From Paenibacillus phyllosphaerae (GTDB lineage: Bacteria > Bacillota > Bacilli > Paenibacillales > Paenibacillaceae), in contig NZ_JACHXK010000002.1 in NCBI RefSeq assembly GCF_014192105.1, positions 73,113-137,112 of the forward strand: a stretch of 64,000 nt of DNA, written 5' to 3'. Position numbers and translations under genes: made by a program. Of the stretch, positions 6,253 through 8,939 are shown in pieces; position 1 is the stretch's first letter, and every line of letters starts with the position of its first letter. Below the pieces are notes generated by a model. The model was not told where the DNA came from. It was given only the letters and a program-made list of their open reading frames with translations, and did not search any database.

Positions 6253-6411
6253 TTAGCTGCCGGCGAGTTCCCTTCGCCAGAAGTCCCCGCTTGGGCTAAA
6301 GCCCCACAGCTCTTCTTCCGATGTCGCATAGGTATGCTTAATCTCCAGAATCTCCAGTTTGAGCGGGATCCATGGTTTCTTGCCATCGGTATTGTTGTTG
6401 TCGTTGTTCAT
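6253..6411 (-). CDS. Small protein with lasso-peptide-like leader (52 aa), unassigned
   Basis: A 52-codon frame starts at ATG 6411, preceded by AAGGAG with nine bases of spacing, and stops with TAA at 6253. It lies 39 bases after the LamG gene on the same strand, so the two are probably cotranscribed. Residues 1-9 are Asn/Asp-rich. Residues 11-30 read KKPWIPLKLEILEIKHTYAT, which follows the register of paeninodin-type lasso precursor leaders (KK.W....LE[VI]L[DE][VI]..T[MY]A), ending in a Thr two residues before a possible cleavage site. The remainder (SEEELWGFSPSGDFWRREL plus AGS) is acidic and then aromatic. In a canonical lasso core an Asp or Glu is expected at core position 7-9; cutting after Tyr leaves Glu only at positions 4-6, so the core is not canonical. 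No cyclase, protease or RRE gene is nearby. The coding call rests on the ribosome binding site, operon position and protein-like composition; RiPP identity is inference. Confidence 0.5.
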   Translation of the reverse strand: MNNDNNNTDGKKPWIPLKLEILEIKHTYATSEEELWGFSPSGDFWRRELAGS

Positions 6412-6450
6412 CGCTTCCATCTCCTTGTTCGCTTCGTTTATGAAGGGCTG

Positions 6451-7503
6451 TTAATAGGAGCCTGCTCCAGTGAAGGTTCCTTGCGCGAAATCCATGACGT
6501 TCATCGAAGTCTCCGTATTCCCGGCGCGGTCTGTGCTGTAATATTCCAATTTCAACGCATTCGCGGCATAAATCTCGAACGGCTTCGTATATTCCGTCCA
6601 TGCGCCGCTGTTGATCCGATATTGAAGCGAGCGAATGCCGGATAGATCGTCGGCCCCTTGCAACGATACGGTGAATCCTTTTATGTAAGCGCGTCCCTTA
6701 GGCGTCGTGCCGTTGATCGGGTCAAAATGATACTTGGTTACGGGAGCCGATACATCCCTCACCGCCTGTACTTCCTGATCGGACAGATAGCGGTTGTAGA
6801 TCCGCAGTTCGTCCTGAACGCCTTTGAACAGACCGTCAGAGCTCCAGTTGCTCTTGGCGATAGTAGCATTCGACCTGGTGATCGCGCGCGGAAGGTTCGT
6901 GCCGTCGCTGGCGTTGCCGTAGCCGTCGACCGTCTGCTGCTTGATGCCGTTAATATAGAACTCGGTCTTATAGCTGCCGCCATCCGGCTTCGCCCGAACG
7001 AGAATATGATTGAGCTCCCCGTATTTGATCCCGCTGCGCACTTCTACCTTCTGCGTATAGGTGTTCCGCGTGCTTGAAGGGCTATAGACCTCGAAGCAAA
7101 GAGTAGAGCTGTAGCCGTCCCTGGCGAGCAGAATGTTGTCGCTTCCGGCGCCGTTGCCCAGATCGACGATGCGTGCCCAAGAACCGGAGCCTTGATCGAA
7201 GCTGGCCCATACGCTGATCGTAATGCCGGCCGAGAAATCCTCCGTGAATTTGTCGAGCTTCACATAGCCATCGGTTCCATTCAGTTGCAGGGCTTGGCCC
7301 GAAGCGCCTTTCACATAGGCCAGCTTGCCGTTTGCAGTGCCGTCGTGGCTATTAGCTGAACTGTCCTCGAGATGCCCGTCGAATGTATAGTGGGCGACAA
7401 GTCCTTCGTTCAGATCAATTGCCGGCGCAGCCGACAAGTTAGAGCCCAGGAGCAAGCTCGCCGCTGCGACAGCGGTTGTCAGATTACGTTTTACAGTTGT
7501 CAC
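6451..7503 (-). CDS. Secreted LamG-domain protein
   Basis: A 350-residue exported protein. Residues 1-26 are a signal peptide (positively charged start, hydrophobic AVAAASLLLGSNLSA). Residues about 30-245 are a LamG/concanavalin-A-like domain (GLVAHYTFDGHLEDSSANSHD at the start, GVQDELRIYNRYLSDQEV at the end), a fold that binds carbohydrate or protein in secreted Gram-positive proteins. Residues 250-340 are an Ig-like domain with LSGIRSLQYRINSGAWTEY and YYSTDRAGNTE, typical of surface-exposed repeats. No catalytic domain is visible. The start is GTG at 7503 with GGAGG eight bases upstream. The 52-codon gene described at 6253-6411 follows after 39 bases. Its ligand cannot be predicted. Confidence 0.88.
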   Translation of the reverse strand: MTTVKRNLTTAVAAASLLLGSNLSAAPAIDLNEGLVAHYTFDGHLEDSSANSHDGTANGKLAYVKGASGQALQLNGTDGYVKLDKFTEDFSAGITISVWASFDQGSGSWARIVDLGNGAGSDNILLARDGYSSTLCFEVYSPSSTRNTYTQKVEVRSGIKYGELNHILVRAKPDGGSYKTEFYINGIKQQTVDGYGNASDGTNLPRAITRSNATIAKSNWSSDGLFKGVQDELRIYNRYLSDQEVQAVRDVSAPVTKYHFDPINGTTPKGRAYIKGFTVSLQGADDLSGIRSLQYRINSGAWTEYTKPFEIYAANALKLEYYSTDRAGNTETSMNVMDFAQGTFTGAGSY

Positions 7504-7970: not shown

Positions 7971-8939
7971 ATGAATGTAAATACGAGAAGCTGTTGCTCG
8001 GTCAGCCGGAATGAGCAGCCTGCGGATATCGCGCAGGTTGATGAGCGAATCGTCAGCGGGGACAAGGCTATTGCCGACGCTGCGGTCTCCGGCATGGTGT
8101 ATTTGTCTGGCGGGACATTCCTGATGGGAACGGAAGATGAGGAGGGTTTTGCCGCTGATGGAGAAGGCCCGATCCGTCCGGTGACGATAGATCCGTTCTA
8201 TATCGATGCCTATGCGGTGACGAACCGGGAATTCCGCGCCTTTACGGATGCAACGGGCTACAAGACGGAGGCCGAACGGTTTGGCTGGTCTTTTGTGTTC
8301 CACCTCTTCGTATCTCCGGAAACGGCGGAGCATGTGACGCAAGTGCCGCAGCAAACCCCGTGGTGGTGGAAGGTCGATGGGGCGAATTGGGCGCATCCCG
8401 AAGGTCCGGACAGTTCGATTGATGAGCGTCTCGACCATCCGGTGATCCATGTGTCCTGGCATGATGCCATGGCGTATTGCGCTTGGAGCGGCAAGCGGTT
8501 GCTGACCGAAGCGGAATGGGAGTACGCTGCTCGAGGGGGACTCGTCCAGAAGCGGTATCCTTGGGGCGATCTGCTGAAGCAGGACGGCGAGCACCGATGC
8601 AATACGTGGCAAGGCAAGTTCCCGGTCAAGAACAATGCCAGCGACGGCTATGAAGGCACAGCTCCGGTGAACGCCTATGCTCCGAACGGTTTCGGTCTGT
8701 ACAATATGTCCGGCAACGTCTGGGAGTGGTGCTCCGACTGGTTCAGCCCTACTTTTCACGTGAAAGGTCCTCGGGATAATCCAGCAGGACCGCCGAGTGG
8801 ACAGGCAAGGGTTATCCGAGGTGGTTCTTATCTGTGTCATAAGTCCTATTGCAACAGGTATCGCGTCGCCGCGCGTAGTTCCAATACGCCGGACAGCTCG
8901 ACAGGCAATATCGGCTTCCGCTGCGCGAAGTCTGTCTAA
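7971..8939 (+). CDS. Formylglycine-generating enzyme family protein (SUMF1/FGE type)
   Basis: A 322-residue cytoplasmic protein with the complete FGE-sulfatase fold: SGGTFLMGTEDEEGF (about residues 45-60), DAYAVTNREFRAFTDATGY, HPVIHVSWHDAMAYCAWSG, LLTEAEWEYAARGG, GNVWEWCSDWF and the C-terminal RVIRGGSYLCHKSYC. Cys289 and Cys294 match the two copper-binding catalytic cysteines of aerobic FGE, so the protein should be able to oxidise a Cys (CxPxR) of a client sulfatase to formylglycine, unlike the many FGE-fold proteins that lack them. No sulfatase gene lies in the window, so the client must be elsewhere. ATG 7971 has AAGGAG eight bases upstream. A terminator follows, so it is a single-gene unit. 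Confidence 0.92.
   Translation: MNVNTRSCCSVSRNEQPADIAQVDERIVSGDKAIADAAVSGMVYLSGGTFLMGTEDEEGFAADGEGPIRPVTIDPFYIDAYAVTNREFRAFTDATGYKTEAERFGWSFVFHLFVSPETAEHVTQVPQQTPWWWKVDGANWAHPEGPDSSIDERLDHPVIHVSWHDAMAYCAWSGKRLLTEAEWEYAARGGLVQKRYPWGDLLKQDGEHRCNTWQGKFPVKNNASDGYEGTAPVNAYAPNGFGLYNMSGNVWEWCSDWFSPTFHVKGPRDNPAGPPSGQARVIRGGSYLCHKSYCNRYRVAARSSNTPDSSTGNIGFRCAKSV

Follow-up and report, generated by a model that had tools for sequence, protein, structure and literature searches.

Organization of the locus

The window, that is, the whole 64,000-nucleotide stretch of Paenibacillus phyllosphaerae DNA that was analysed, carries on its minus strand a short precursor-like gene and, beside it, the gene of a probably secreted multidomain protein, with the following features.

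6253..6411, minus strand: precursor-like gene of the hairpin-core family; 52 codons, ATG at 6409-6411, stop at 6253-6255
6421..6426, minus strand: AAGGAG ribosome-binding site, 9 nt upstream of the ATG at 6411
6328..6381, minus strand: lasso-type leader, peptide residues 11-28, KKPWIPLKLEILEIKHTY; from NF033524 (14 bits over residues 11-29) and alignment
6370..6372, minus strand: Trp14, RRE-binding Trp (role as given in the available part of PMC13381572); present in 65/65 family members
6331..6333, minus strand: Thr27, leader Thr at -2 relative to the core; at +13 from Trp in 65/65
6256..6327, minus strand: core ATSEEELWGFSPSGDFWRRELAGS, without an acid at positions 7-9
6265..6306, minus strand: predicted beta-hairpin, strands WGFSPS and FWRREL, residues 36-49; AlphaFold2, block mean pLDDT 89 and 79
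6256..6258, minus strand: C-terminal Ser (Ser52), 65/65; position of the phosphorylation site of the paeninodin precursor (available part of PMC9266682)
6451..7503, minus strand: partner protein of 350 aa, with a signal-like N-terminus (by eye), LamG, an OmpL47-type domain and a conserved tail
6766..7281, minus strand: LamG domain of the partner (PF13385)
6505..6687, minus strand: OmpL47-type domain of the partner (NF047446, 64.7 bits)
6454..6501, minus strand: C-terminal tail of the partner, NVMDFAQGTFTGAGSY, of the type that predicts a peptide gene

The initial annotation had placed an unmarked gene with a good ribosome-binding site here, behind the gene of a LamG protein, and this placement is correct: the gene is real, its coordinates are right, its strand is minus, its AAGGAG site precedes the ATG by 9 nt, and the stop codon of the LamG protein gene (6451-7503, minus strand) lies upstream of it across a gap of 39 bases. 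The whole peptide is MNNDNNNTDGKKPWIPLKLEILEIKHTYATSEEELWGFSPSGDFWRRELAGS. The leader pattern that had been read from it is in register (K11 K12 x W14, L19-E-I-L-E-I and T27-Y-A), with Thr27 in the penultimate leader position, and the core is as it had been described, in that Leu-Trp-Gly stands at positions 7-9 and Glu at positions 4-6. Since the Asp or Glu that would act as ring acceptor was examined and is absent, the peptide is not a lasso peptide. In the suggested comparison with the paeninodin-family precursor model NF033524, the model matches the peptide over residues 11-29, but at 14 bits (E 0.03), far under the curated cut-off of 27 bits. The RRE motif, W-I-P-L-K-L, has its Pro one place early in comparison with WxxP, and Leu at +3.

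No Pfam family matched the window peptide at E ≤ 1, and a PDB sequence search returned chance-level matches only (best E 0.38). One protein search for relatives gave only the peptide itself, and another gave only the three members found in this genome. Divergent from the LamG gene, on the plus strand at 7971-8939 of the window, lies an FGE-like sulfatase-modifying-factor gene (PF03781, 297 bits), which was judged to be unrelated because no FGE-like match was shown near the peptide in 20 mapped loci.

Paralogues and lasso gene sets in the same genome

A genome-wide search with NF033524 (7.9 Mb, 54 contigs) gave seven matches. Two are precursors adjoining lasso cyclases on contig C1, and three are orphans, located on contig C23 (36 bits), on contig C5 (23 bits) and in the window (14 bits). 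Two further weak matches on C5 (15.8 and 12.3 bits) were rejected as chance, one being a 26-codon stretch and the other part of the frame of an ABC-transporter ATPase. The three orphans share a common leader and the C-terminal motif W-x-F...GD-(x)-W-x-R...S, with 15 invariant columns. Each of them follows a protein with an N-terminal part of its own (LamG, carboxypeptidase-regulatory repeats or Hcp-like), and the last domain of all three of these proteins is of the OmpL47 type (NF047446, 61-67 bits). The paralogue on C23 (L022:6496-6681) exceeds the NF033524 cut-off with its 36 bits, yet has no ring acid at positions 7-9.

The proposal that the gene could be an orphan RiPP precursor with its enzymes encoded elsewhere fits what the genome contains: contig C1 carries a paeninodin-type set in one place, in the order C, A, an HprK-like kinase, B1 (NF033536, 122 bits), an ABC transporter and B2 (PF13471), and in the leader of the window peptide the Trp for the RRE and the Thr for the protease are both kept. 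With the genome's own C, K, B1, B2 and D as queries, no match was obtained anywhere in the 64-kb window. A second lasso set (L021, G000:C1:912000-926000) consists of A, C and a transporter; its 14-kb stretch contains no match to B1, B2 or the kinase, and the set presumably shares B1 and B2 in trans. The precursor of this second set adjoins the cyclase and carries W-Q-Q-L, which makes it the only one of 41 lasso-type loci without the Pro of WxxP; the W-I-P-L of the window peptide resembles it. A third lasso-like locus of the genome (L024, G000:C9:212000-226000) shows a PqqD match, an Asn-synthase match and then a small Cys-containing ORF.

A peptide family with a non-lasso core

Searches with the family's own alignments, counted as one locus per place, gathered at least 65 loci, a set from which weaker members may be missing: 54 of them are in 51 genomes of one taxonomic family and 11 in the other families of the order. 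Family members were separated from lasso precursors by the extent of the match, which spans the core in the former and lies mainly in the leader in the latter; 17 stretches chosen for a core-reaching or highest-scoring match comprised 14 family members and three lasso-type loci. The leader-only matches of the same searches served as a comparison set of 41 lasso-type loci, which correspond to 37 distinct places (L030/L114, L032/L115, L035/L116 and L111/L189 are each one place counted twice), and at least one lasso gene was found in the stretch of 38 of the 41. The lasso-type precursor of L047 (G002:C82) has its ring Asp as usual, but its 3-kb stretch contains no lasso gene match; it may be a genuine lasso precursor that lies away from a cluster. 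In a sample of 338 genomes taken from the class, nothing outside taxonomic family f1 matched at E ≤ 1e-8; weaker members in the order miss this threshold too (for example G422, 1.3e-8), which makes restriction of the family to the order likely rather than proven.

The leader Trp, a Thr exactly 13 residues after it and the C-terminal Ser are each present in all 65 family loci, and the Thr at +13 is likewise present in all 41 lasso-type loci. Pro at +3 from the Trp occurs in 64 of the 65, the window gene being the exception, and a hydrophobic residue at +5 occurs in every locus. NF033524 matches 17 of 18 aligned members at E ≤ 0.01, and the window member is the one that fails. The ring acid separates the two sets: an acid at core positions 7-9 is found in 16/65 family loci (absent from 49) against 40/41 lasso-type loci (absent from one), counts to which a Fisher test was applied and in which the family loci are not independent, since 31 of the 65 come from one genus. 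The core contains a conserved segment of the W-x-[FY] type, in which W is replaced by C in four members. By eye, 10 members have W...W in the core, four have C...C, and mixed pairs never occur. In L178, L181, L184 and L186 both paired core Trp residues are Cys, an observation that suggests a disulfide-closed hairpin.

These features bear on the earlier idea of a different crosslink. A RiPP whose ring or crosslink is of another kind (for example Trp-based, or an isopeptide via another acid) and is made by an enzyme not yet recognised would suit a conserved Trp-rich core and the 16 loci that do have an acid at positions 7-9. However, no recurrent enzyme gene was seen by eye in 20 neighbourhood maps, and the change from Trp pairs to Cys pairs fits hairpin packing or a disulfide, so that such a product is quite unlikely; the simplest assumption is a linear product or, for the Cys/Cys members, one closed by a disulfide.

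In the genus that supplies 31 loci, dN/dS over 28 of them was 0.073 for the core, 0.22 for the leader and 0.116 from the Trp onward. No close relative of the exact window gene was found, and the estimate therefore comes from this one genus and not from orthologues of the gene; conservation of the frame, which the initial annotation had named as a check, is seen in the 65 family loci and in the value of 0.116 for one genus. As one of 65 family loci, with 28 homologous frames of one genus at a dN/dS of 0.116, the window frame is beyond chance. A decayed or inactive lasso precursor, which had also been considered, would account for the paeninodin-like leader, the loss of the ring acid and the NF033524 score under the cut-off. 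Nevertheless, the core is kept across species in 65 loci and is more constrained than the leader in the genus tested, where purifying selection acts, and the gene has a near-constant partner; decay is accordingly a most improbable explanation.

Pairing with OmpL47-ended proteins

The gene of an OmpL47-ended protein adjoins 64 of the 65 peptide genes on the same strand, up- or downstream, compared with none of the 41 lasso-type loci (37 places). The two genes lie within 141 bases of each other or overlap in 62 of the 64; at L078 (452 bases) and L091 (952 bases) the partner frame is broken up. The frame is also short or broken up in L179 and L182 and is cut by the contig end in L095, and L101 is a peptide locus without a partner. 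The LamG gene had been taken for a mere neighbour of the peptide gene, a description that falls short, as the OmpL47 module at its product's C-terminus accompanies the family almost without exception. The N-terminal parts vary by locus and include Hcp-like, LamG, carboxypeptidase-regulatory, SLH, PKD/F5-F8 and nuclease-like types. Pairs of Hcp-like genes, one plain and one OmpL47-ended, occur in these Gram-positive genomes (Hcp-like by PF05638 in the L023 pair and by similarity alone in the others); the peptide gene lies between or beside the two in L023, L029, L031, L086, L090, L092, L093, L096, L097, L099 and L100.

The association was also approached from the side of the protein, by searching a collection of species genomes with six partner sequences reduced to their OmpL47 module and tail, which gave 79 loci. 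A peptide was found within 4 kb in 21 of the 22 loci that match through the tail (MDFxxGxFxGxGSY type) and in none of the 57 others. The 21 positive loci are places already among the 65, so that the search tests the direction from protein to peptide, showing how seldom such a tail is found with no peptide gene, and adds no new cases. The reading of the partner as a chance neighbour is countered by this result and was rejected. All 22 tailed loci belong to Paenibacillus and Cohnella. The tailed locus without a peptide is in P. lycopersici (L149/L200), where a second pair of Hcp and Hcp-OmpL47 plus tail has a gap at the place where the peptide is expected, and may represent a natural loss of the peptide gene. 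In the genome of the window, the three partners are the best matches to OmpL47 plus tail, at 121-154 bits against 52 for the next, although these partners had themselves gone into the model; G008 and G020 have matches from outside the model set, each with a peptide.

By eye, the tail departs from the usual form in 9 of the 64 partners (variants in L022, L023, L088, L094, L095, L097, L175 and L176; a changed tail in L067). Most untailed OmpL47 domains run on past A-G-N-x-E into an alternating strand and D-K-T-A-P-like residues, a continuation that tailed domains do not have (both by eye). Distances between domains correlated with those between cores at a Mantel r of 0.26 and with those between leaders at 0.11 (300 permutations), values that include the effect of shared ancestry. 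A PDB sequence search with the OmpL47 module found no relative at E ≤ 1.

The peptide is thus a member of a conserved class that combines a lasso-type leader with a non-lasso hairpin core and is genetically tied to an OmpL47-ended protein; that the family exists and pairs with such proteins is virtually certain.

Relation to the lasso enzymes

A B1 match at E ≤ 9e-33 is present in 51/51 carrier genomes of one taxonomic family, against 248/394 genomes above the cut-off overall. Elsewhere in the order it is present in 10 of 11 carriers, as against 7 of 24 other genomes, the latter taken by handle number and not matched by genus, with no core-spanning match among the matches listed; the carrier without a B1 match, G423, is 81% complete. 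Stratification of the co-occurrence by genus gave 3e-5, with genus g9 left out, totals made by eye and relatedness within genera ignored. In one genome, G206, the peptide and its partner stand at the end of a lasso gene cluster, the order on one strand being C (cut by the end of the stretch), A, K, B1, B2, an ORF, D, the SLH/OmpL47 protein and the peptide. In 63 of the 65 peptide loci, no lasso gene match was found in the stretch (3 to 14 kb; 64 kb for the window). The exceptions are L102, which has a transporter-like match only, and L094, which has a whole lasso set.

According to the available parts of the respective sources, paeninodin-type RREs owe their specificity to the Trp of WxxP (PMC13381572), the C-terminal Ser is phosphorylated by the kinase while the precursor is still unthreaded (PMC9266682), and a conserved Thr in the penultimate leader position is described as critical for the recognition step when the leader is removed (PMC10368454). 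In the family, the sites used by B1, B2 and the kinase are kept and that used by the cyclase is mostly lost, and this is the main argument from which we infer maturation in trans to a linear peptide. It is probable, if by no means assured, that the peptide is a client of B1 and B2.

The mechanism we propose is that the window gene encodes an orphan precursor that would borrow the paeninodin-type lasso machinery in trans without a lasso being made. Its leader would be handed by B1, a discrete RRE protein, to B2 for cleavage after Thr-x, and its C-terminal Ser would probably be phosphorylated by the HprK-like kinase. The cyclase would go unused, since the ring acceptor is gone, and the product would be a linear beta-hairpin peptide of 18-30 residues. 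Export may occur via the lasso ABC transporter, and at the cell surface the peptide may bind the C-terminal OmpL47-type beta-sandwich module and tail of the neighbouring, probably secreted protein. We assign a probability of roughly 0.55 to this reading of a linear hairpin peptide that is made by lasso enzymes in trans and acts with an OmpL47-ended partner, for which the processing, phosphorylation, export, linearity and binding are deduced from genomic evidence.

The 63 stretches that have no adjoining lasso gene match could also be expected if the peptide were no RiPP at all and stayed unprocessed in the cytosol, where its leader-like half would bind B1 as a decoy, regulator or chaperone and the surface protein would merely be encoded with it. 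This arrangement would leave unexplained the Thr for leader removal at -2 and the kinase site at the C-terminal Ser, each present in 65/65 loci; moreover, the core is the more constrained half and the partner looks extracellular. A cytosolic role is for these reasons unlikely.

Predicted hairpin and possible docking

The core was folded as a beta-hairpin in two AlphaFold2 models. Foldseek placed PKD domains near the top, none of them with E ≤ 0.001, and the VIA-align Z stayed below 8 throughout. For model 1, 40 of the 50 matches listed span the model residues up to 156-167, so that the hairpin completes a PKD/FN3-like domain (judged by eye, with the same protein recurring in many rows), whereas for model 2 the hairpin is used in this way in 0 of the 50 matches listed. 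Donor-strand docking, which model 1 shows and model 2 does not, was thus not reproduced.

In the donor-strand complementation of Ig-like pilus subunits, a peptide strand completes an incomplete Ig-like beta-sandwich. The mechanism suggested by one of the two models would be analogous, but the proteins differ, the organisms are Gram-positive and the strand would be delivered with a lasso-type leader. One may speculate that the lasso enzymes of Paenibacillus and Cohnella mature dispersed beta-hairpin plugs, each of which would complete or seal the truncated Ig-like OmpL47 domain of one surface protein in a donor-strand-like manner, as a leader-controlled and possibly phosphorylated assembly step or switch, with the N-terminal parts (LamG, Hcp-like, carboxypeptidase-regulatory, SLH, PKD) as exchangeable cargo. 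This extended picture is rather improbable.

Comparison with known peptide systems

The family resembles paeninodin-type precursors (NF033524) in the K-x-W-x-x-P-x-[LMVI] leader, the Thr at +13 from the Trp and the C-terminal Ser, and in occurring in the same genomes with the same B1 protein. It differs from them in that the ring acid is absent from 49/65 loci, the hairpin core is rich in W, F and Y, a cyclase usually does not adjoin the gene, and an OmpL47-ended partner does. The partner, for its part, shares its last domain with the OmpL47-type beta-barrel domain proteins (NF047446) and differs from the usual ones in that a short Gly-rich tail, which tracks the peptide, replaces the last strand and the D-K-T-A-P-like linker.

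With the linear polyphosphorylated peptides (LPPs), described in 2026, the family has in common a lasso-like RRE motif on a non-lasso core, a product that is probably linear and an expected role as kinase substrate. As far as the available part of PMC13381572 goes, LPPs are linear and phosphorylated, have the same type of RRE motif and co-occur with paeninodins, and the peptide might on this basis be a client of the LPP pathway and be cut by a SpI-like peptidase. The LPP leader, however, is of the YxxP type (YxxPxVLxHQxIxFETxxS), in contrast to the Trp of 65/65 family members and their paeninodin pattern, and the family further differs from LPPs in that no cluster of its own was seen adjoining the gene, its C-terminus is conserved rather than highly variable, and it has a surface-protein partner. 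Assignment to the LPP pathway is consequently very unlikely.

Among the papers listed by literature searches, none on a lasso-leader peptide with an OmpL47 protein was seen, and a search for OmpL47 together with Paenibacillus gave no paper. According to the Discussion of PMC13381572, what paeninodins do biologically is not known. A second, non-lasso class of substrates with a dedicated partner would, if true, give the paeninodin machinery a concrete role, namely the maturation of cell-surface peptides. The present observations suggest that lasso-peptide enzymes have another job at the cell surface and that a lasso leader can serve a non-lasso core encoded away from any cluster. This class of peptides would be overlooked if only clusters were searched, and at least one family member, that on contig C23, scores above the NF033524 cut-off and would be annotated as a paeninodin lasso peptide.
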